Positions 10,845-21,812 of a DNA stretch of 21,812 nucleotides are shown one piece after another. Position numbers and translations under genes: made by a program. The stretch's first letter is position 1. The number at the start of each line of letters is the position of its first letter. A model generated the notes under the pieces. The model was not told where the DNA came from, ran no database searches, and worked only from the letters and a program-made list of their open reading frames with translations. The DNA is from Candidatus Latescibacterota bacterium (lineage in GTDB: Bacteria; JAAXHH01; JACQVL01), in assembly GCA_016209865.1 (NCBI GenBank), contig JACQVL010000115.1, positions 1 through 21,812 of the forward strand. Direction: 5' to 3'.

Positions 10845-10873
10845 TTGACACCGTACGGCGCCCCCGCTATTTT
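10845..10873 (+). promoter_or_regulatory. Sigma-70-type promoter for the glycan/radical SAM operon
   Basis: A perfect -35 TTGACA (10845-10850) is separated by exactly 17 bases from TATTTT (10868-10873, 4 of 6 matches). It begins directly after the stop codon of the CuA gene and would give a leader of about 75 bases before the ATG at 10957. It is the best promoter match I found in the window. Confidence 0.6.
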
Positions 10874-10956: not shown

Positions 10957-13086
10957 ATGCGTATCGGGATGGATGCGACCTGTCTCCCTCAGGCCCCGGC
11001 CGGAGTGGGCCGGTATCTTCGCGGCCTCCTCACCGCGCTGGCCGGATTGGACACTTCGCACGAGTACGTCGTCTTCATCAAAGAGTCGGATCGCGCCTGG
11101 TTCCGAGCCCTCGAACATCCCCGGCTGACATGGGTGACGATCCCCCACACCATCCGGCCGGCCCGGCTGCTCTGGGAACTGGTCATGACGCCACGGGTCA
11201 TCGACCAGTTCCGCCTCGACGTCTGGCATGCCCCCCATTACATCGTCCCGCTGTCCGCCGGGCGCTGCCGGGTGGTCGTGACGTTCCACGACATGACCTT
11301 CCATCTCTTCCCGGAATGGTACTCCACGCTGAAGCGCATGGCCTTCCAATGGGCGTTGCCGCGCGCAGCCCGGACCGCACATCGCATCATCGCTGATTCG
11401 TACACCACCAAAGAGGACATTACCCATCTCCTTCATGTCGAGCCGGACCGGATCACGGTGATTCATCCCGGTCTCGATCCGGCGTTCCGTCCGGTCGAGG
11501 ACGCCGCCGTCCTGGCGGCGGTCCGGGCGCGATACCGTCTGGACGCGCCTTACATCCTGGCGGTGGGGACGCTCGACCGGCGGAAGAACCTGCTCACTCT
11601 CGTCCGGGCGTACGACGCGCTCGTCGAGCGAGAGCAGGCAGACTGCCTCCTCGTCCTGGCCGGGCAACGGGGGAATGACGCGCCAGCGCTCCTCCAGGAG
11701 ATCGCGGCGCGACGGCTGCATGATCGGGTGCGTCTCGTCGGCTACGTGGCGGACGAGGACCTGCCAGCGCTGTACACCGGAGCCCGACTGTTCGTCTCCG
11801 CGTCACGGTACGAAGGCTTCGGGTTCCCCGTCCTGGAGGCGATGGCGTGCGGCACCCCCGTCCTGACCTCCCCCTCTCCGTCGGTCATGGAAATGGCCGG
11901 CAACGACGGCGTCATCCTCGACCCGCTCGATGCGCAGGAGTGGTGCGACCGTATGGCCGGCGCGCTGGTCCGCCCAGCTTCCCGTCTCAACGACGGGTCC
12001 CCGTTCGCCGCCCAGTACTCGTGGACCGAGGCGGCACGGCAGACGCTCCGGGTGTACGAGGAGGTCTTCGGCCACGAGGGGACATCCCCCGCCTCGAACG
12101 GGGGCGCCCCGCTCGCTGCTCCTCCTCTCGATCGCTTATTCGACGACGAGGCTCGTCCTCAGCCTCCTTCCAATGGCGTTGTCTCTGATGGGTTACACCG
12201 GGCGATCCTCAAGACGATCGTCTACTCGGACCTGTTCGACTATCCCCTGTCGGCGGCTGAGACCCATCGCGGCCTCATCGGACATCGAGCGGAGCCGGAC
12301 GAGGTGACGGCAGCGCTGCAGTCCCCCGCGCTGTCGGAGAAGATCGCCGAATTGAACGGCCTGTACATGCTGAAAGGACGGGAAACCCTGGGCGACGCCC
12401 GGGCCGTCCGGGCGGCCCGTGCTGCTCAGTTGCTCACGCGCCATCGTCCCCTCCTGCGATGGCTGTGCGCCTGCCCGTTCGTCCGCATGGTCGCCCTGTC
12501 GGGCGGGATCGCGTTCGAGAACTGCGGGGAGGAGAGCGATATCGACCTCTTCGTGATCGTGGAGGGAGCGCGCATCTGGAGCACGTATGCCTTCCTGGCC
12601 GGCGTGGCCAAGCTGATCGGCAAACGAGACCTCCTCTGTTTGAACTACCTCATCGGCCGGACGGATTACTGCGTGGAGGAGCACGATTTCTTCACCGCCC
12701 ATCAGATCGCCAGTCTCAAGCCGATCTACGGCTGGGAGCGATTCCGGCGGTTCACGGCGGCCAACGGGTGGGTCACCGCTCACCTCCCGCAGTGGAACGG
12801 TCACGCCAACGGGACGGTGAACCACCGGGCTTCGGAAATCGTCCTCTCCCCGTGGGCTGCCCGTCTCAAGCGCGGGATCGAGTTCCTGCTCGGCCTCCCG
12901 GTCTTTCATCCGATCGACTGGTCGATCTACCGGCTCTACCGTCGTCGGATTCTCCGCAAGGTCGCCGGACGCACACACAGCGGGGTCCGGTTAGGACGGC
13001 ACCTGATCAAGCTCCACACGACCGACCACGGGGGCCAACTGTTGGAGCGCTTCGAGCGTCGTGTGGCAGAGGTTGAACATGGCTGA
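10957..13086 (+). CDS. GT4-family glycosyltransferase fused to a nucleotidyltransferase-like domain
   Basis: The 709-residue cytosolic protein has two halves. Residues 1 to about 372 are a GT-B glycosyltransferase of the GT4 type: N-terminal GVGRYLRGLL loop, ILAVGTLDRRKNL at the domain junction, and the donor-site E-x7-E (E286, E294) in SRYEGFGFPVLEAMACG. A low-complexity linker (about 373-410) leads to a winged-helix-like segment (ILKTIVYSDLFDYPLSAAET). A polymerase-beta-like nucleotidyltransferase signature follows: SGG at 515-517 and SDIDLF with acidic residues D528 and D530. As separate proteins, such YSDLFDYPL/nucleotidyltransferase-like proteins occur beside sugar-transfer genes in other lineages (recollection, not checked). 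The fusion suggests coupled sugar activation and transfer, but the second activity is unproven. It is the first gene of the operon, and its stop overlaps the next start by 8 bases. Confidence 0.88.
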   Translation: MRIGMDATCLPQAPAGVGRYLRGLLTALAGLDTSHEYVVFIKESDRAWFRALEHPRLTWVTIPHTIRPARLLWELVMTPRVIDQFRLDVWHAPHYIVPLSAGRCRVVVTFHDMTFHLFPEWYSTLKRMAFQWALPRAARTAHRIIADSYTTKEDITHLLHVEPDRITVIHPGLDPAFRPVEDAAVLAAVRARYRLDAPYILAVGTLDRRKNLLTLVRAYDALVEREQADCLLVLAGQRGNDAPALLQEIAARRLHDRVRLVGYVADEDLPALYTGARLFVSASRYEGFGFPVLEAMACGTPVLTSPSPSVMEMAGNDGVILDPLDAQEWCDRMAGALVRPASRLNDGSPFAAQYSWTEAARQTLRVYEEVFGHEGTSPASNGGAPLAAPPLDRLFDDEARPQPPSNGVVSDGLHRAILKTIVYSDLFDYPLSAAETHRGLIGHRAEPDEVTAALQSPALSEKIAELNGLYMLKGRETLGDARAVRAARAAQLLTRHRPLLRWLCACPFVRMVALSGGIAFENCGEESDIDLFVIVEGARIWSTYAFLAGVAKLIGKRDLLCLNYLIGRTDYCVEEHDFFTAHQIASLKPIYGWERFRRFTAANGWVTAHLPQWNGHANGTVNHRASEIVLSPWAARLKRGIEFLLGLPVFHPIDWSIYRLYRRRILRKVAGRTHSGVRLGRHLIKLHTTDHGGQLLERFERRVAEVEHG

Positions 13087-14539
13087 TATCTTATTCTCTC
13101 ACTCCTATTTTTTGCGGTTCGACCCCAAGCAATGGGAGACGATGCAGCCGTACCCGCCGCTCGGCACGCTGTACGCGGCCAGCTACACGCGGCAGCGGGG
13201 CTACTCCGTCGCGCTGTTCGACAGCATGCTGGCGGCCGGACCGGATGAGTTCCGCGCCGCGCTCGACGCCCACCAGCCCCGGTTCGTCGTGCTCTACGAG
13301 GACAGCTTCAACTACCTCAGCAAGATGTGCCTCACCCGGATGCGGGAAGCGGCGTTCGTCATGGCCGGTCTGGCGAAGCGCCAGGGGGGCTGTACCGTCA
13401 TCGTCTCCGGGTCGGACGCGACCGATCACAAGGCGGCGTACCTGGCGCATGGGGCGGATTATCTCCTGATCGGGGAAGGGGAGATCACCCTCGTCGCCCT
13501 GCTCGACGTGCTCTCCGGGCGGTCCCGGACATCGCTCGACGACGTCCCCGGCCTGGCGTTCATCCGTGACGGGACGCTCCGGCAGACAGGGGAACGAGAG
13601 TTGCTCCGCGACCTCGATGTCCTCCCGCCGCCTGCTCGCGACCTGCTCGACATCCCGCTGTATGAGCGGGCCTGGCGGACGCGCCACGGGTACTTCTCGA
13701 TGAACGTCGTGACGACGCGAGGATGCCCGTTCAAGTGCAACTGGTGCGCCAAGCCGATCTACGGAAACCGGTACAACAGTCGCAGCCCGGAGCGCGTCGC
13801 CGCCGAGCTGCGGGAGTTGAAGACGACCTGCCGGCCGGATCATCTCTGGTTCGCGGACGACATCTTCGGCCTGAAGCCCGGCTGGGTCGAACGGTTCAGC
13901 CGGTGCGTCATTGAGCAGGACGCGGTCATCCCTTTCAAGATTCAGGCACGGGTCGATCTGTTGGACGAGGACGTCGTCCGGGCGCTGAAAACGGCCGGGT
14001 GCCGGTCGATCTGGGTAGGCGCGGAATCCGGGTCGCAGAAGATTTTAGACGCGATGGACAAGGGGACGACGGTCGAGCAGATCCACACGGCAGCTGCACG
14101 GCTCCACCGGCACGGCATCGAGGTCGGGTTCTTTCTGCAGTTCGGCTATCCCGGCGAGACGTGGGAGGACATCGGCAAGACGATGCTGATGGTTCGGGAC
14201 TGCCGGCCGGACGACATCGGGATTTCTGTCTCCTACCCGCTGCCCGGGACGATGTTCTACGAGCGGGTCAGGCAGGAGTTGGGGGAAAAGCGGAACTGGA
14301 CGGACAGCGATGATCTTGCGATGATGTTCCGGGGGACGTACTCCCCAGAGTTCTACCGGACGCTCCACCGTGTCGTGCACGGACGGTTCCGGGTGCAGAA
14401 AGGGTTGGATGCGTTCGCTGAGTGGCTGCGGCATCCGGCGCGGTTGGACGGGCAGCGGATGCGGACAGTGGCGGCGGCGGCGTCCGGCGCGGCGATGGCG
14501 GCGGTCGGGGGCGTGCGGCTGAGACGGCTGAGGCATTAA
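13079..14539 (+). CDS. B12-binding-type radical SAM protein 1
   Basis: The 486 residues form an N-terminal Rossmann-like domain of the cobalamin-binding type (about 1-145, with MQPYPPLGTLYAASY and LIGEGE) and a radical SAM domain. The 4Fe-4S motif C-x3-C-x2-C is C216, C220, C223 (RGCPFKCNWC); later ESGSQKILDAMDKG marks the barrel. Such enzymes cleave SAM to a 5'-deoxyadenosyl radical and often methylate or rearrange unactivated carbons. The Rossmann domain has no DxHxxG cobalamin-ligand motif, so cobalamin, if bound, would be base-off without a protein histidine, as proposed for several BchE-like enzymes. The ATG at 13079, inside the upstream gene, has GAGG 6-7 bases before it. It resembles protein 3 (start 15972) most. 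The substrate is unknown; a glycan or its lipid carrier is inferred from neighbours. Confidence 0.9.
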   Translation: MADILFSHSYFLRFDPKQWETMQPYPPLGTLYAASYTRQRGYSVALFDSMLAAGPDEFRAALDAHQPRFVVLYEDSFNYLSKMCLTRMREAAFVMAGLAKRQGGCTVIVSGSDATDHKAAYLAHGADYLLIGEGEITLVALLDVLSGRSRTSLDDVPGLAFIRDGTLRQTGERELLRDLDVLPPPARDLLDIPLYERAWRTRHGYFSMNVVTTRGCPFKCNWCAKPIYGNRYNSRSPERVAAELRELKTTCRPDHLWFADDIFGLKPGWVERFSRCVIEQDAVIPFKIQARVDLLDEDVVRALKTAGCRSIWVGAESGSQKILDAMDKGTTVEQIHTAAARLHRHGIEVGFFLQFGYPGETWEDIGKTMLMVRDCRPDDIGISVSYPLPGTMFYERVRQELGEKRNWTDSDDLAMMFRGTYSPEFYRTLHRVVHGRFRVQKGLDAFAEWLRHPARLDGQRMRTVAAAASGAAMAAVGGVRLRRLRH

Positions 14540-14545
14540 TTCCCT

Positions 14546-15961
14546 ATGTCATCCCATCGCATCCTCCTCTACAACCCGCACGCGGTGTTTTACACGATGC
14601 CGCTCGGCCTGCTCGCCGTCGGGTCGGCGCTCGACCCGGCCCGGTACACCGTCGACATCGTCGACGCCCGGCTGGAGCGCGACCCGCTCACCACGGTGCT
14701 CAGCCGCATCGACGGGGCGCTCTGCTTAGGGGTGACCGTCCTCACCGGAGGCCCGATCCGGGACGCGCTGCGGGTGTCCCGCGCGGTCAAGGCGAAGCGG
14801 CCCGACCTGCCGGTCGTCTGGGGCGGCTGGCATCCGTCGCTCTTCCAGACGGCGTGTCTGGACGAGCCGGGCGTGGACGTGACGGTGGCCGGACAGGGAG
14901 AGGACACGTTCGCGGAGATCGTCGCCCGGCTGGCGGCGCGGGAGCCGCTCGACGGCTGCGCGGGATCGGCATTCCGCCGGAACGGGTCGGTCGTCGTCAA
15001 CCCGCCGCGCCGGCTGCGTGACGTGAACGAGTTCCCGGCGCACGATTACGACCTCATCCCGGTCGAACGGTACTTCCAGTTGAAAGGACAGCGGCAGGTC
15101 GATTACATCTCGTCCCAGGGCTGCCGGTTCCGGTGCGCGTTCTGCGCCGACCCGTTCGTCTACGAGCGCGGTTGGGTGGGACTGTCGCCGGAACGGATGG
15201 GACGGGAAGTGGCAGCACTGTTCGCGCAGTACCGGTTTCGGGAACTCGCGTTCCAGGACGAGACGTTTTTCACGAGCGCGAAACGGGTGGATGCGATCTG
15301 CGACGCGTTCTTAGCGGCGGGACTGTCGATCACCTGGACGGCGACGATGCGGGCAGACCAGGCCACCCGGATGAATGATGAGCTGTTCGCCAAAGCCAAA
15401 CGTTCCGGCCTCCGGCGGGTGATGATCGGCGTCGAGTCCGGCTCCCAGCAGATGCTCGACTGGATGGAGAAAGACATCACCGTCGAGCAGGTGCTCATCA
15501 GCGCGGAGCAGTGCGTCCGGCACGGGATCGGCGCGATCTTCCCGTTCATCGTCGGGTTCCCCGGCGAGCCGGACGAGAGCGTGGCGGCGACGATGCGGCT
15601 GGTGAAGCAGTTGCGCCGGATGAGTCCGCAGTTCGAGACACCGATCTTTTTTTATCAACCGTATCCCGGCTCACTCATCGCGGACGAGGTCGCACGAGCC
15701 GGTTATCCGATGCCGCAGACCCTCGACGAATGGGCAGAGTTCGACTATGTGGGATCGTACGGTTCCTGGGTGAGCCGTAAGAAATGGCGGATGATGCAGC
15801 GGTTTACATTCTACCAGCGCCACGCATTCGGCGTGCATCCCAGCCCGCTCCATCGCCCGCTCCAGGCGCTCTCCCGATGGCGGTGCGACCGGGACTTCTA
15901 CGAACTGCCGATAGAGAAGACAGTCGTTGAATGGCTCCGGCCCGCGCCACAATTATCATGA
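14546..15961 (+). CDS. B12-binding-type radical SAM protein 2
   Basis: The 471 residues have a cobalamin-type Rossmann domain (starting ILLYNPHAVFYTMPLGLLAVGSAL; VWGGWHPSL near 90; GQGEDTFAEI) and a radical SAM domain with C193, C197, C200 (QGCRFRCAFC) and GVESGSQQMLDWMEKD. It belongs to a different subfamily from protein 1: the VWGGxxPSL and GQGExTF signatures are shared instead with the truncated protein at 20642. The C-terminal part (IFFYQPYPGSL and a basic helix-rich tail) may hold substrate specificity. It starts 6 bases after the previous stop and is certainly co-transcribed. A weak GAGG further upstream is its only ribosome binding site, suggesting translational coupling. Substrate unknown. 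Confidence 0.9.
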   Translation: MSSHRILLYNPHAVFYTMPLGLLAVGSALDPARYTVDIVDARLERDPLTTVLSRIDGALCLGVTVLTGGPIRDALRVSRAVKAKRPDLPVVWGGWHPSLFQTACLDEPGVDVTVAGQGEDTFAEIVARLAAREPLDGCAGSAFRRNGSVVVNPPRRLRDVNEFPAHDYDLIPVERYFQLKGQRQVDYISSQGCRFRCAFCADPFVYERGWVGLSPERMGREVAALFAQYRFRELAFQDETFFTSAKRVDAICDAFLAAGLSITWTATMRADQATRMNDELFAKAKRSGLRRVMIGVESGSQQMLDWMEKDITVEQVLISAEQCVRHGIGAIFPFIVGFPGEPDESVAATMRLVKQLRRMSPQFETPIFFYQPYPGSLIADEVARAGYPMPQTLDEWAEFDYVGSYGSWVSRKKWRMMQRFTFYQRHAFGVHPSPLHRPLQALSRWRCDRDFYELPIEKTVVEWLRPAPQLS

Positions 15962-15971
15962 GTGAATTCCC

Positions 15972-17366
15972 ATGGACCTCCTCCTCGCCCACGGCTACTT
16001 CCTCGACGACGACCCGAAAGAGCGGCGAATCATGAAGCCCTACCCGCCGCTCGGTCTGCTGTACCTCTCGGCGTACCTGAAATCCAGGGGGTTCGCGGTC
16101 GAGGTGTTCGATTCCACCTTCCGGCCCCGTCAGGAATTCCGGACGCTCCTTGACACGCGGCATCCCTCAGTCGTCGGGCTGTATTGTAATCTGATGACAA
16201 AGCCGACCGTACTCAGGATGATGGCGGAGGCGAAGGCAGCCGGGGCGACGGTGATCGTCGGCGGGCCGGAACCCCCGTACTACGCGGAACAGTTCTTAGA
16301 ACACGGGGCAGACGTCGTCGTCATCGGCGAGGGGGAAACGGCGCTGGAAGACCTCCTCCCGGCGATCCAGCAGCGCGGCGCGCACGACCTGTCAGCCGTT
16401 CGCGGGATCGTGTACCGGACGGACGACGGCACGGTCGTCCGCACGGAGGATCGGCCGTACGTCCCCGACCTCAACGCCCTCCCGTGGCCCGACCGCGCGG
16501 CGATCGACATTCGACAGTACCTCGACGTGTGGCGGGCGCATCACGGTCTGGGATCGATCTCCCTGATTACCGCGCGCGGATGTCCCTACCGGTGCACCTG
16601 GTGCAGCCACTCCGTCTTCGGGGAGACGCATCGCCGCCGCGCGCCCGCGCTCGTCGCGGATGAAGTCGCCCATCTCGTCGAGACGTACCGTCCGGACATG
16701 CTCTGGATGGCGGACGATGTCTTCACGATCAACCATCGCTGGCTGTTCCAGTATGCCGACGAGATGAGCCGGCGGGGGCTCCGCATCCCGTTCGAGTGCA
16801 TCTCCAGGGCGGATCGGCTGAATGAACCGGTGATCGAGACGTTAGCCGGCCTCGGCTGCTTCCGGGTCTGGATCGGGTCGGAGAGCGGCTCACAGCGCAT
16901 CTTAGATGCGATGAAGCGCGACGTAACGGTCGAGTGCATCCGGTCGATGACGAAGACCGCGCAACGACACGGTCTGCAGGTCGGCCTGTTCGTCATGTTA
17001 GGCTACGAAGGGGAGGACGTATCGGACATCGACGCGACGATCCAGCATCTGAAGCAGACGGGGGCGGACACGTTCCTGACGACCGTCGCGTATCCGATCA
17101 ATGGCACTCCGTACTACCGGGAGGTCGAATCCCGGCTGATCGACCGGCTGCCCTGGGAGTCCCGCACCGAGCGGGACCTCTCCGTGAAAGGCCGGCATTC
17201 TCGCCGGTTCTACCGGTTCGCCGATCGCCGGATGGTGCATGAAGTCGCGCTCCATCGCGCCTGGCACAGCCCACGGCGGGACTACACGGCGCTCGCCAAG
17301 GCGTTCATCAACGCGCGGATCGGGCGCTGGGGGATGCGATGGACGCGGAACGAGGTGGAGGTGTGA
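15972..17366 (+). CDS. B12-binding-type radical SAM protein 3
   Basis: The 464 residues follow the same plan: cobalamin-type Rossmann domain (LLLAHGYFLDDDPKERRIMKPYPPLG, with VIVGGPEPPY and VIGEGE), then the radical SAM motif C204, C208, C211 (RGCPYRCTWC) and GSESGSQRILDAMKRD. Its N-terminus and tryptophan-containing cluster loop closely match protein 1 (13079), so the two probably arose by duplication and may act on related positions. The start lies 10 bases after the previous stop. The stop overlaps the next gene's GTG start in a GTGA arrangement, typical of translational coupling. Substrate unknown. Confidence 0.9.
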   Translation: MDLLLAHGYFLDDDPKERRIMKPYPPLGLLYLSAYLKSRGFAVEVFDSTFRPRQEFRTLLDTRHPSVVGLYCNLMTKPTVLRMMAEAKAAGATVIVGGPEPPYYAEQFLEHGADVVVIGEGETALEDLLPAIQQRGAHDLSAVRGIVYRTDDGTVVRTEDRPYVPDLNALPWPDRAAIDIRQYLDVWRAHHGLGSISLITARGCPYRCTWCSHSVFGETHRRRAPALVADEVAHLVETYRPDMLWMADDVFTINHRWLFQYADEMSRRGLRIPFECISRADRLNEPVIETLAGLGCFRVWIGSESGSQRILDAMKRDVTVECIRSMTKTAQRHGLQVGLFVMLGYEGEDVSDIDATIQHLKQTGADTFLTTVAYPINGTPYYREVESRLIDRLPWESRTERDLSVKGRHSRRFYRFADRRMVHEVALHRAWHSPRRDYTALAKAFINARIGRWGMRWTRNEVEV

Positions 17367-18145
17367 ACCCGTTTGACACCATCGCCCCGGCGTATGACGA
17401 TACCTTCACGCACAGCCGGGTCGGCCAGTACCAGCGTGCAGTTGTCGCTGAGATCATGGCGCGCCGGTTCACACCAGGGATGCGGGTGCTGGAGATCGGC
17501 TGCGGCACCGGAGTCGATGCGGTCTGGCTGGCCCGGCGCGGGGTGTCGGTCGTGGCGATCGACACGGCGCCCGCGATGGTCGAGGTCGCCAGGCGGCGTG
17601 TCGAGGCGCATGGGGTCCAGGACCGGGTAGACGTCCGTGAGCGATCCGTTCAACAACTCGACCAGGAAGCGTTCGACGGGCTGTTCGATGGCGTGTTCTC
17701 CAATTTTGGCGTGCTGAACTGCGTCCCCGACCTGCGCTCTACCGGGACGGTGCTGGCCCGGCTGGTTAAGCCCGGCGGGTTCGCGGTGCTCTGCCTGATG
17801 GGCCCCTGGTGCGCTTGGGAGATCGTCGCGCACCTGGCGCAGCGCCATGTCAGGCCAGCGTTCCGGCGGCTTACTCGTGGGGGAGTGGAGGCCCGTGTGG
17901 GCACCGAGACGGTGCATGTCGTGTACCCATCGAGCCATTCCGTCGCCGCTGCGTTCGCTCCGTCCTTCAGGCTGATGGGGATCACCGGCGTCGGGGTCTT
18001 CATCCCGCCCTCCTACCTGGAGCCGATCGTTGATCGCTTCCCCCGTGTATTCCAGACATGCTGGACGCTGGAGCGCGCCGTGAACCGGCGGTATCCGTTC
18101 AACCGGCTCGGCGATCACTACTGTCTGGAGCTGCGACGGACGTGA
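17363..18145 (+). CDS. Class I SAM-dependent methyltransferase
   Basis: The 260-residue soluble enzyme starts NPFDTIAPAYDDTF, a common opening of small-molecule methyltransferases of the UbiE/Methyltransf_11 type. Motif I VLEIGCGTG is at residues 42-50, the acidic end of strand 2 is in VVAIDTAPAM, and FSNFGVLNCVPD resembles motif IV. The C-terminal part is long and basic and could bind an acidic or lipid-linked substrate. GTG at 17363 is chosen because it makes a 4-base GTGA overlap with the preceding stop and has GAGG 7 bases upstream; an ATG at 17339 is the alternative and adds 8 residues. An O- or C-methylation step on the glycan is likely (inference). A 25-bp inverted repeat follows its stop. 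Confidence 0.88.
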   Translation: MNPFDTIAPAYDDTFTHSRVGQYQRAVVAEIMARRFTPGMRVLEIGCGTGVDAVWLARRGVSVVAIDTAPAMVEVARRRVEAHGVQDRVDVRERSVQQLDQEAFDGLFDGVFSNFGVLNCVPDLRSTGTVLARLVKPGGFAVLCLMGPWCAWEIVAHLAQRHVRPAFRRLTRGGVEARVGTETVHVVYPSSHSVAAAFAPSFRLMGITGVGVFIPPSYLEPIVDRFPRVFQTCWTLERAVNRRYPFNRLGDHYCLELRRT

Positions 18146-18146
18146 T

Positions 18147-18248
18147 GATTTTGGATTTTAGATTTTGGATTGAACACCATTGTCTTTCTCACATCCAAAG
18201 TCCTTGTCACATCTTTAATCCAAAATCCAAAATCTAAAATCCAAAATC
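18147..18248. repeat. Perfect 25-bp AT-rich inverted repeat
   Basis: The arms at 18147-18171 and 18224-18248 are exact reverse complements and are built from GATTTTGGATT units; a further CCAAAAT unit extends the right arm inward. The 52-base spacer has no coding potential. The left arm overlaps the methyltransferase stop codon region and the right arm ends 9 bases before the next ATG. It could fold as a long hairpin in the mRNA, separating operon halves, or be a small non-autonomous repeat element. Confidence 0.85.
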
Positions 18249-18257
18249 GGTTTCTCC

Positions 18258-19376
18258 ATGCGCATCGGCTACATCGTGCCCGGATTCCCCGCCGACGAGC
18301 GCGATTGGTTCACTCCGGCCATCGCGGACACGATTCGGTGCATCAGGACGCGGCATGACGTTCGTGTCATCACACTGCGATACCCGCGCGAGACGAGGGA
18401 GTACACGGTGCACGGTATCCCGGTCATCGCCGTCGGCGACCGGGGGTTCACGACGCTCCGGCGGGGACTCCGGCGGGTGCTCGACGAGCACCAGCGGCGA
18501 CCGTTCGATCTTCTGCACGCCTTCTGGGCGACGGAGGCTGGAGCGGTCGGGGCGGCGGCGGCGCGGCGACTCGACCTGCCCCTGGTTGTCACCTGTGCGG
18601 GGGGAGAACTCGTCGCACGGGAAGACCTCCGGTACGGGGACTGGCGGTCGCTCCGGGCGCGCGTCCTGATCCGGGCGGCGTTGAATCGAGCAGACAGTAT
18701 CGTCGTTGGTTCAGCGTCTCAACGTGCGCTGGTGGCTGGCCGGAAGGCAGCCTGGGGGACGAAGACGGCCTGCATTCCGCTCGGCATCGATACTGAGAAG
18801 TTCCGGCCCGCGCCGACGGGCGTCCAGATCCGCACGTTTACGATCCTCTCCGTCGCCGGCCTGATCCCGGTCAAGAATCACCGGATGCTCTTTCGCGCCC
18901 TGACACGACTGCGAGACCGGCCGTGGCGGCTTGACCTCGTCGGGGACGGCCCGTTGAAAGAAGACCTTCGAGCTAACGCTCGATCCCTCGGCATCGTGGA
19001 GCGTCTCCACTGGCACGGTTGGGTCCACCATGATGAGGTGGCCGTTTACTACCAGCGCGCCGATGCGTTCGTGACGACATCTTATCATGAAGCTCAGTGT
19101 GTGGCGTTGCTCGAAGGAATGGCGTGCGGGCTGCCGGTCGTCTCGACGGCGGTCGGGCTCGTCCCGGAGGTGATCGAGTCGGGCGTGAACGGGGTCTGCG
19201 TCCCATGCGAGAATGATGAGATGCTGACGGAAGGACTCGCCATGTTCCTCGACCGTCCTGAACGAACGGTCGCTGCCGGGGAACACAGCCGGTTCCGTGC
19301 GCTCGCGTACGATCGGCGGTTGATGGTCGCGCGGCTGGAGGAGGAGTACGAGAAACTGTCCGGGGGAAAAGCATGA
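18258..19376 (+). CDS. GT4-family glycosyltransferase
   Basis: The 372-residue GT-B retaining glycosyltransferase transfers a sugar from a nucleotide donor to an acceptor at the cytoplasmic face. The N-terminal domain starts MRIGYIVPGFPADERDWF. The donor domain begins near residue 195 (ILSVAGLIPVKNHRMLF), with LVGDGPLKEDL and the E-x7-E pair E278/E286 in SYHEAQCVALLEGMACG. Substitution of the usual EGFG after the first glutamate by EAQC is common in this family. The ribosome binding site is weak and an AT-rich hairpin lies immediately upstream, so this gene and those after it may be expressed differently from the upstream genes. It is followed after 16 bases by the flippase gene. Confidence 0.92.
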   Translation: MRIGYIVPGFPADERDWFTPAIADTIRCIRTRHDVRVITLRYPRETREYTVHGIPVIAVGDRGFTTLRRGLRRVLDEHQRRPFDLLHAFWATEAGAVGAAAARRLDLPLVVTCAGGELVAREDLRYGDWRSLRARVLIRAALNRADSIVVGSASQRALVAGRKAAWGTKTACIPLGIDTEKFRPAPTGVQIRTFTILSVAGLIPVKNHRMLFRALTRLRDRPWRLDLVGDGPLKEDLRANARSLGIVERLHWHGWVHHDEVAVYYQRADAFVTTSYHEAQCVALLEGMACGLPVVSTAVGLVPEVIESGVNGVCVPCENDEMLTEGLAMFLDRPERTVAAGEHSRFRALAYDRRLMVARLEEEYEKLSGGKA

Positions 19377-19392
19377 GAGGGCGGGCGACACG

Positions 19393-20658
19393 GTGAGGCG
19401 GCTCGCCAGGAATACCGTTTTGTTGCTCGCGGGCAACCTCTCACAGGCCGGTCTCGGACTGCTGACGGGCGTGATCTTGGCCCGGTATCTGGGAGCGACC
19501 GGGTTCGGACAGTATGCGTTCGTGATGACGACGGTCAGCGTGTTCGGGCTGTTCGTCGAGCTGGGGTTTAATACCTTCCTCACACGCGACGTGGCGCGCG
19601 ACCGGCGCCGGGCGACCCGCTACTTGCTCGGCTCATTGATCGCCAAACTCGGCCTGACCATCCTGACGACAATCCCGTATCTACTCCTGGTGTGGGGCCT
19701 GGGAGGACACCGGGACGAGCAGGTTCTTACGGCGATGTGCGCCGGGCCGATCCTGTTTCTGGTCATCGCGTTCAACGCGTCGTTCGCGTCGATGTTCCGA
19801 GCCTTCGAAGCGATGGGCGATCTGCTTCTCCTGAACGTCGCGGCGGCCGTGAGCCAGGTGGCCGGTCTGTTCGGGCTGGCGACGGCCGGGTACGGGGTGA
19901 CCGCCTTAGTCGGGTGGACGGTCTGTGTGCAGGTGGGACGGCTGGGGGCGAGCTGGCTGCTGTTTCGCCGGTTGATCGGCCGGGACAAGAGGGATGGGCA
20001 CGACGAATCCCTGCCTGGGGAAGCCTCGCTCATCCCGTTCAGTCTCACCCTCATCAAGCAGGCGTTCCCGTTCGGACTGGCGTCGATCATCATTACCCTG
20101 TACGCACGTGCGGATATTCTGCTCCTGTCGTTCCTGGCGGGCGATCGGGCGGTCGGATACTACAGCGCCGTCTACCGCTTTTTCGATACCCTGCGGATGC
20201 CGCCGGGCGCGTTCTTGGGGGCGTACCTGCCCGTGATCTCACGGGCAGGGGTCGAACGAGACCGGACAGGTCTGATCGAGTCATGCCGGACAGCCCGTTC
20301 CTGGCTGCTCGTCTATGGGACCGGATGTGCTCTGGTTGTTGCGCTTCTCGCCCGGCCGGTGGTGCTCTGGCTGTACACTGAACAGTTTGCCACGTCGATC
20401 CCGGTGCTCCAGGTGCTCATCTGGGCGCTCGTCCCGAGTGTCGCGAACGACCTCACCCTACACTATTTTTATGCGGTCGGGCGAGAGCGCGTCGCTCCGA
20501 CGGTCATGTCACTCGGTCTGGTCGTGAACGTGGGGTTGAACCTGTGGCTGATCTCTCGGTATGGGGCGCTGGGAGCCGCGATCTCCATGCTCGTCTCGGA
20601 ATGGATACTCTGCGTCGTGTTCTGGAGAGAAGGAAACCGTCATGATCATCCTGTATAA
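19393..20658 (+). CDS. Polysaccharide/lipid-linked oligosaccharide flippase (Wzx-like, MATE/MVF fold)
   Basis: The 421-residue membrane protein moves lipid-linked saccharides across the inner membrane. About 12 hydrophobic segments can be followed from residue 7 on. The opening (LLLAGNLSQAGLGLLTGVILARYLGATGFGQYAF) is the typical first helix pair of polysaccharide-synthesis flippases, with the LGATGFGQY turn; further helices include FPFGLASIIITLYARADILLLSFL and the C-terminal pair ending near 410. GTG at 19393 is the best available start; a GAGAGG element lies about 12 bases before it, somewhat far. No Wzy polymerase or O-antigen ligase gene is visible in the window. The end overlaps the next gene by 17 bases. 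Confidence 0.9.
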   Translation: MRRLARNTVLLLAGNLSQAGLGLLTGVILARYLGATGFGQYAFVMTTVSVFGLFVELGFNTFLTRDVARDRRRATRYLLGSLIAKLGLTILTTIPYLLLVWGLGGHRDEQVLTAMCAGPILFLVIAFNASFASMFRAFEAMGDLLLLNVAAAVSQVAGLFGLATAGYGVTALVGWTVCVQVGRLGASWLLFRRLIGRDKRDGHDESLPGEASLIPFSLTLIKQAFPFGLASIIITLYARADILLLSFLAGDRAVGYYSAVYRFFDTLRMPPGAFLGAYLPVISRAGVERDRTGLIESCRTARSWLLVYGTGCALVVALLARPVVLWLYTEQFATSIPVLQVLIWALVPSVANDLTLHYFYAVGRERVAPTVMSLGLVVNVGLNLWLISRYGALGAAISMLVSEWILCVVFWREGNRHDHPV

Positions 20659-21812
20659 TCCAAGAGCAACGGCCCCTACGGCCCGCCGATTTCCGTTGTC
20701 CGTCATGGCGATCGGGGCAGTCCTGGACGATGATACGTATACGATCGTGGATGGGAACGCCTGCGACGATCCGTATCAGGTTATCGCAGACCTCATCCGT
20801 TCCGACGCATCCGTGGATATCGTCGGGGTGACAGTCATGCCGGGCCCGCAGCTCCAGCAGGCGGTTCCGGTCTGCCGCCGACTGAAAGCGGAATTCCCGC
20901 ACGTCACGATCGTCTGGGGGGGCTATTTCCCTTCGCTCTACCCGGACGCCGTCCTGCGGGCCGAGTACGTGGATTTCGTCGTCCGGGGACAGGGAGAAGA
21001 GACGTTCACTGAACTCCTCACGGTGTGCCGGACTGGAGGCAGTTTTGCCGGGATTCCGGGCCTGTCATTCAAGGAAAATGGCAACATCCGACACAACCCC
21101 GAACGAGTCTGGAAAGGACCGGATGCGTTCCCGGTCTATCCGTACCACAAGATCGACGCGCCGCGCTATATCTTGCCGAGTTTTTTAGGCGACCGGACGG
21201 CCGTCCATCAGGCCAGCATCGGGTGTCCGTTCAAGTGTAACTTCTGCGGAGTCATCACCGCCTATGGCAGCCGGGAGAAGATGGAATCCCCGGAACGGAC
21301 TGCCGGAACGCTCCACTTCTTGAAAGAGCGGTACGGGGTCAACGCCATCCAATTCTACGATAACAATTTTTTCTTGGGGGAAGCGCATACCGCTGAACTG
21401 TGCGAGCGGATGATTCCGCTCGGCATGAATTGGTGGTGCGAGGCCCGGATTGATGCATTACTCCGGTATTCAGACGCGACGTGGAGAAAAATCCGGGACA
21501 GCGGCTGCCGGATGGTCTTCACCGGGGCGGAGTCCGGGTCGGACTGGGTTCTCCGGCAGATGTCGAAGCACTTAACGACAGCCCAAACGCTGGAGTTGGC
21601 CGAGCGGGCCAGACGGTGGGGGATCATCCCGGAGTTCTCTTTTATCCTGGGCAACCCGAACGACCCGGAACGGGACATCCGGGAGACGATCGCGTTCATC
21701 CGTCGTCTCAAGACGATCAACCCTGATTGCGAGATTATCATCTACCATTACACGCCGACACCGCAACGGAACAAATCGTACGGAGGCATCGACGGCAGGT
21801 TCGAATTCCCGG
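20642..21812 (+). CDS. B12-binding-type radical SAM protein 4 (truncated by window end)
   Basis: About 390 residues are visible, open to the window end. The N-terminal domain (IILYNPRATAPTARRFPLSVMAIGAVL, VWGGYFPSL, GQGEETFTEL) is cobalamin-type Rossmann. The radical SAM motif is C195, C199, C202 (IGCPFKCNFC), followed by FYDNNFFLGEA and GAESGSDWVLRQMSKH. Shared signatures put it in the same subfamily as protein 2 (14546). The ATG at 20642 lies inside the end of the flippase gene with AAGGA about 8 bases upstream, so co-expression is likely. C-terminal features cannot be judged. Substrate unknown. Confidence 0.9.
   Translation, partial: MIILYNPRATAPTARRFPLSVMAIGAVLDDDTYTIVDGNACDDPYQVIADLIRSDASVDIVGVTVMPGPQLQQAVPVCRRLKAEFPHVTIVWGGYFPSLYPDAVLRAEYVDFVVRGQGEETFTELLTVCRTGGSFAGIPGLSFKENGNIRHNPERVWKGPDAFPVYPYHKIDAPRYILPSFLGDRTAVHQASIGCPFKCNFCGVITAYGSREKMESPERTAGTLHFLKERYGVNAIQFYDNNFFLGEAHTAELCERMIPLGMNWWCEARIDALLRYSDATWRKIRDSGCRMVFTGAESGSDWVLRQMSKHLTTAQTLELAERARRWGIIPEFSFILGNPNDPERDIRETIAFIRRLKTINPDCEIIIYHYTPTPQRNKSYGGIDGRFEFP

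Follow-up and report, generated by a model that had tools for sequence, protein, structure and literature searches.

What would a bacterium make with four B12-binding radical S-adenosylmethionine (SAM) proteins encoded among two glycosyltransferases, a methyltransferase and a flippase? The question is posed by a contig of 21812 bases from Candidatus Latescibacterota (contig C53 of genome G000, an assembly of 356 contigs that is 83% complete), which was analyzed over its entire length and is called the window here. From position 10957 to the contig end, eight genes lie on the + strand in the order GT4-NT, rS1, rS2, rS3, MT1, GT4b, Wzx-type flippase and rS4. We propose that this operon belongs to a widespread pathway, one without a name, for a cell-surface glycan or glycolipid that contains a radically modified unit, and we place the probability of this reading at about 0.6. 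It is built on gene content, family membership, the conservation of the neighborhood in other phyla and the co-inheritance of rS1 with rS4, all of which are observed. If it is right, a surface component whose carbon modifications lie beyond ordinary sugar chemistry is made in several widespread phyla.

An operon with four radical SAM proteins

The operon itself is real. Its features, all on the + strand, are these:

10845 to 10873, +: candidate promoter, TTGACA-17-TATTTT, 83 nt 5′ of the operon's first ATG; a consensus match only
10957 to 13086, +: GT4-NT fusion gene; GT4 at about residues 1–380, putative winged-helix/nucleotidyltransferase (NT) region at about residues 390–709
13079 to 14539, +: rS1, B12-binding radical SAM protein; alternative start of the open reading frame (ORF) at GTG 13061
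14546 to 15961, +: rS2, B12-binding radical SAM protein
15972 to 17366, +: rS3, B12-binding radical SAM protein
17363 to 18145, +: MT1, class I SAM methyltransferase; alternative start at ATG 17339
18258 to 19376, +: GT4b, GT4 glycosyltransferase
19393 to 20658, +: Wzx-type flippase (Polysacc_synt/MATE-like; Polysacc_synt, 119 bits)
20642 to 21812, +: rS4, B12-binding radical SAM protein, cut by the contig end
21487 to 21812, +: end-to-end overlap with bases 1–326 of C105, another contig of G000, at 92.9% identity

An earlier reading of this DNA, the initial annotation, had described eight co-directional genes with overlaps, four of them coding for radical SAM proteins with a cobalamin-type domain, and this description holds throughout. 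The CxxxCxxC motif is present in rS1, rS2, rS3 and rS4, and all four pass the Pfam cut-offs for the radical SAM domain (PF04055, 56–85 bits against 29.5) and the B12-binding domain (PF02310, 38–67 bits against 32.1), so that they classify by domain content as cobalamin-dependent radical SAM proteins. Genes overlap at the GT4-NT/rS1, rS3/MT1 and Wzx/rS4 junctions; the remaining junctions have gaps of 6–16 nt, except for 112 nt ahead of GT4b. Since the window is the whole contig and the assembly ends at 21812, rS4 is incomplete. The inventory of two GT4 glycosyltransferases (106 and 120 bits, both above the Pfam cut-off for Glycos_transf_1), a methyltransferase and a flippase was also correct, but the putative C-terminal winged-helix/NT domain of the first GT4 had been overlooked.

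Recurrence and co-inheritance of the neighborhood

A profile search of genome contigs with rS1 returned at least 574 relatives, of which the best 80 loci were kept; the counts that follow use the 55 loci of 14 kb or more. The best 80 span Chloroflexota, Bacteroidota, Ignavibacteria and Acidobacteriota, and the same partners recur in them. NT was found in 49 of the 55, MT1 in 44 and a glycosyltransferase of any kind in 46. Among the radical enzymes, rS4 was present in 29 and rS3 in 12, with at least two B12 radical SAM proteins in 32 and a SPASM radical SAM protein in 22. Genes for export and assembly of a glycan were likewise frequent: Wzy-type polymerase/ligase genes (25/55), a flippase (18/55, by a flippase-only profile) and a PF02397-type polyprenyl-phosphate sugar transferase (13/55). 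As these loci were picked by rS1, its own presence is no evidence; that of its partners is. A reduced form occurs in Anaerolineae (L064, L065, L069, L080, L085, L089, L098, L123, L137 and others), with Wzy-type, GT2, NT, rS1, MT1, flippase and nucleoside phosphorylase genes; there, rS1 is the sole B12 radical SAM protein of the four.

A second sample, 384 genomes drawn from across the domain and not picked for rS1, was searched at thresholds of E 1e-120 or better for rS1 and 1e-100 or better for rS4. Eight genomes carry rS1 and seven carry rS4, and all seven rS4 genomes carry rS1 where 0.15 would be expected (hypergeometric probability 3.5e-14, a guide only, since related genomes are not independent). 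MT1 was present in all five of the further genomes searched for it. Because partners recur near rS1 across phyla and rS1 and rS4 co-occur in this way, the neighborhood exceeds chance.

Closer to the window, within a phylum sample of 16 genomes from one order, rS1 and rS4 were found only where the cluster was found; the initial annotation had named radical SAM genes standing apart from the sugar genes in related genomes as an outcome that would tell against its reading. Two genomes of that order, G001 and G013, have GT4-NT followed by rS1 near gltD, with rS3, rS4, MT1, GT4b or a flippase on their other contigs. A control was taken from G000 itself: three other loci with B12-binding radical SAM genes (on C189, C104 and C214; 13–17 kb) gave no glycosyltransferase, flippase, NT or MT1 hits.

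Four radical SAM subfamilies

None of rS1–rS4 came close to the cut-off of any named NCBIfam equivalog (HpnJ, BchE, AprD4, HpnR, PhpK, MgmA and others), and the highest score of any of the four, rS3 to BchE, was 134 bits against a cut-off of 481. Nor did any of the four attain the cut-off of a cofactor-pathway model; best hits to a known cofactor pathway were the other outcome that the initial annotation had named as telling against its reading. A tree built from 140 radical SAM ORFs, those of the window together with those of related loci, puts each of the four proteins in a clade of its own, and every one of these clades also has members from other copies of the cluster; for rS2, the tree is the sole basis of the grouping. 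We regard them as four B12 radical SAM subfamilies that are uncharacterized but whose genetic context is defined.

The nearest solved structures are AprD4, MgmA, CysS, OxsB, TokK and TsrM. They comprise enzymes of several kinds, among them methyltransferases, a diol dehydratase and an enzyme that contracts a ring, so that similarity does not tell which reaction is catalyzed. MgmA (9ccb), a B12 radical SAM C-methyltransferase that methylates a glutamine of methyl-coenzyme M reductase, leads both the structural matches of the rS1 model (E 5.8e-23) and the sequence hits of rS3, but it acts on a protein, the identity is 20%, and rS1 scores 108 bits against an NCBIfam cut-off of 360. In an alignment of 33 rS1 sequences, all match the NCBIfam models for BchE, HpnJ and the ladderane-associated B12 radical SAM protein, and 27 also match HpnR. 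The rS1 structure model has long helices at its end. An acidobacterial contig (L106) contains an ORF of 927 residues that matches both GT4 and rS1, a possible GT4-rS1 fusion.

The nucleotidyltransferase region

The NT region of the first gene aligns with stand-alone proteins encoded beside rS1 in other loci. The same GT4-NT fusion occurs in G013, G001 and G205, and an NT+GT4 fusion in L067. Across 37 sequences, the G-x(n)-D-x-D motif of Pol-beta-type nucleotidyltransferases is invariant (G120, D132 and D134). The structure model (pLDDT 90.7) resembles winged helices in its N-terminal part, and its core (about residues 91–212) aligns with the nucleotidyltransferases ANT and MNT at modest Z scores of 7–7.7. 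A Foldseek search with the region gave no match below E 0.001, which does not indicate a new fold. From the motif and the model, NT could be a Pol-beta-type nucleotidyltransferase region and a putative transferase; a regulatory role is possible.

A likely continuation of the operon

The rS4 profile led to a second contig of the same genome, C105 (locus L157), which starts inside rS4 and is likely to continue the operon. Besides the remainder of rS4, it encodes a methyltransferase, a PMT-type glycosyltransferase, an amidohydrolase, a GT2, a GDSL-type protein, a DUF3473 polysaccharide deacetylase and a SPASM radical SAM protein. The join is supported by a contig of G001 with a like gene set: the end of rS3, MT1, GT4b, a PMT-type glycosyltransferase, a methyltransferase, an amidohydrolase, a GT2, a deacetylase, a FemAB-like protein and a SPASM radical SAM protein. 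The initial annotation had proposed looking beyond 21812 for a polymerase, a ligase, sugar-nucleotide genes or more radical SAM genes; C105 supplies further glycosyltransferases, the deacetylase and the SPASM protein, and no polymerase was seen in its annotated part. The divergence of the overlap (92.9% identity) suggests a sister strain, which would account for the assembly break, and the overlap looks as if two strains had been co-assembled. The same contig holds an FGE-sulfatase-domain protein (L157:6030-8027) and a sulfatase (L157:13007-14377).

Disposal of adenosyl by-products

B12 radical SAM methyltransferases release 5′-deoxyadenosine and S-adenosylhomocysteine (SAH), and in hopanoid synthesis, HpnG acts on an adenosylated intermediate. 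Two recurrent partners of the core may be concerned with such compounds. An amidohydrolase is encoded in 13 of the 55 rS1 loci and a nucleoside phosphorylase in 10, never together; the phosphorylase is confined to Chloroflexota among these loci, so the exclusion may follow phylum. The amidohydrolase is present, one copy each, in six of nine genomes carrying the set; in five, it shares a contig with rS1, rS4 or MT1, and in G000 it sits on C105 behind the rS4 end, a copy matched by profile only. The metal and active-site residues of cog0402-type adenosine/SAH deaminases (HxH, HxxE, H, D) are invariant in five relatives (H58, H60, H169, E172, H199 and D249).

The amidohydrolase, a putative deaminase, has as its nearest solved protein TM0936 (1p1m), of the deaminases of SAH and methylthioadenosine, with which it shares the active-site pattern; its gene lies outside the window, on C105. 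For the Chloroflexota phosphorylase, the nearest solved protein is methylthioadenosine phosphorylase. TM0936 deaminates SAH (PMC10992897), and the 5′-deoxyadenosine that radical SAM enzymes release as a by-product is toxic (PMC6079011). We lean somewhat toward a role for these two enzymes in clearing by-products rather than in processing an adenosylated intermediate. Such a role would link radical SAM chemistry to dedicated removal of its adenosyl by-products.

A proposed pathway

For the substrates, reaction types, order of steps, role of NT and final product, we infer the following. A core of NT, rS1, rS4 and MT1, often joined by rS3, rS2, the SPASM protein and extra class I methyltransferases, would make an unusual unit through one radical step after another; C-methylation, or a related change of the carbon skeleton, on a sugar or sugar-lipid is the most likely chemistry. 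In the cytoplasm, the GT4 enzymes would add sugars to a lipid-linked precursor; this would be flipped by the Wzx-type protein, and enzymes on the outer side (the PMT-type glycosyltransferase and polysaccharide deacetylase of C105, or Wzy-type proteins in relatives) would extend or trim what has been exported. The amidohydrolase, or the phosphorylase in some Chloroflexota, may meanwhile remove 5′-deoxyadenosine and SAH or process an adenosylated intermediate. More tentatively, and with somewhat less than even confidence, we suggest that in at least four phyla, up to four distinct B12 radical SAM proteins work one after another on a single surface unit, a sugar or a glycolipid, by C-alkylation, deoxygenation or ring rearrangement, with their own disposal of adenosyl by-products. 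If so, this chemistry would be new for bacterial surface glycans.

Loci for Wzx/Wzy-dependent exopolysaccharide or O-antigen are among the closest known systems, having GT4s and a Polysacc_synt flippase, to which relatives of the operon add Wzy_C and PF02397 sugar transferases; no polymerase or initiating transferase was seen in the window. No standard locus of the Wzx/Wzy type is known to us that includes a set of B12 radical SAM enzymes. A literature search found no paper on a radical SAM cluster with flippase/Wzx/Wzy, glycosyltransferase, exopolysaccharide or lipopolysaccharide genes, a weak absence since it covered open-licence papers only. As far as searched, no named system fits the cluster, as the initial annotation had supposed.

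Several points weigh against the proposed pathway. G342, a genome that is not a close relative and is listed as 100% complete, has rS4, rS1, NT and MT1 dispersed on four contigs (C25, C32, C41 and C46). No glycan gene turned up there in the 10 kb flanking rS1 or rS4, so that the core unit can do without glycan genes next to it. Which glycan genes accompany the core varies between phyla, their counts rely on profiles derived from the very loci that were counted, and the check on their density is small, comprising the three loci of G000. Neither the window nor the annotated part of C105 showed an initiating sugar transferase or a polymerase, and C105 may itself derive from a sister strain, its overlap with C53 (about 93%) not being exact. 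NT could be regulatory.

On balance, the comparative evidence largely bears out the idea of a glycan or glycolipid locus modified by radical chemistry, and we grade it partly supported: the context of glycosyltransferases, Wzy-type genes, flippase and sugar transferases stood, as did that on C105, whereas the choice between sugar and lipid as target, and the reactions, belong to the proposal, and the core of G342 is dispersed. The product may be sought directly, as relatives of rS1 occur in cultured strains of Niastella, Mucilaginibacter, Longitalea and Terrimonas.

Alternative explanations

The alternative that survives best, which we consider unlikely, is that the radical enzymes modify the lipid part (a membrane lipid or the lipid carrier) and not the sugar, that the glycosyltransferases glycosylate it, and that the flippase moves the resulting glycolipid, as in pathways of the bacteriohopanepolyol or ladderane type. 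The bacteriohopanepolyol pathway (HpnH, HpnG, HpnI and HpnJ) comprises a radical SAM step, a nucleoside phosphorylase, a glycosyltransferase and a B12 radical SAM protein, a combination like that seen here, and HpnJ is the best NCBIfam match of both rS1 and rS4. The HpnJ, HpnR and ladderane models matched by rS1 sequences all describe lipid enzymes, and the terminal helices of the rS1 model would suit a lipid substrate. These matches are nevertheless far under the equivalog cut-offs (HpnJ, 131 against 577.6 bits), the cluster differs in having a flippase and often Wzy-type genes, hopene cyclase is without a match in eight of nine cluster-bearing genomes, and no lipid-synthesis genes were recognized among the annotated recurrent partners. 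A strictly hopanoid reading was rejected, squalene-hopene cyclase being unmatched in G000 (83% complete) and seven others, with one sub-cut-off match in G001. B12 supply was dropped as a discriminator: CobS was found in G000 only, which is uninformative as B12 can be imported.

Less probable still is a product in the form of a small glycosylated compound, similar to an aminoglycoside or a nucleoside, that is secreted with the MATE-like protein as its exporter. AprD4 (6fd2), the radical SAM diol dehydratase of apramycin biosynthesis, shares the B12-type domain and radical SAM core, acts on the aminoglycoside precursor paromamine, and is the top PDB sequence hit for rS1 and rS4 and the second for rS3; in addition, the NT region has a modest structural resemblance to aminoglycoside nucleotidyltransferases, and the amidohydrolase is deaminase-like. 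Yet identity to AprD4 is about 20% over the alignment, its model scores 81 bits against a cut-off of 500, the flippase belongs to the Polysacc_synt family, and many relatives neighbor Wzy-type, sugar-transferase and several glycosyltransferase genes, a context of glycans and not of a soluble antibiotic.

We think it very improbable that the unit modifies a peptide or protein that is later glycosylated and exported. The frequency of the SPASM partner and the FemAB-like and PMT-type proteins on the G001 contig would fit such a role, but the GT4, Wzx and Wzy-type genes point to a lipid-linked glycan, and no conserved small precursor ORF is known, though none was searched for. A chance neighborhood, in which the radical SAM genes would belong to some unrelated pathway, for a cofactor or for RNA, might be argued from how common B12 radical SAM genes are and from the dispersed core of G342, but it is already largely refuted by recurrence in several phyla, co-inheritance and the GT4/NT fusions.

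Genes upstream of the operon

The window also holds gltB and gltD, upstream of the operon. Between gltD and the operon lies a DNA methylase gene (PF01555; 8962-10347) whose G+C content, about 44%, is lower than that of the contig, about 64%. In G001, gltD adjoins the GT4-NT gene directly, and the DNA methylase gene does not lie between them.

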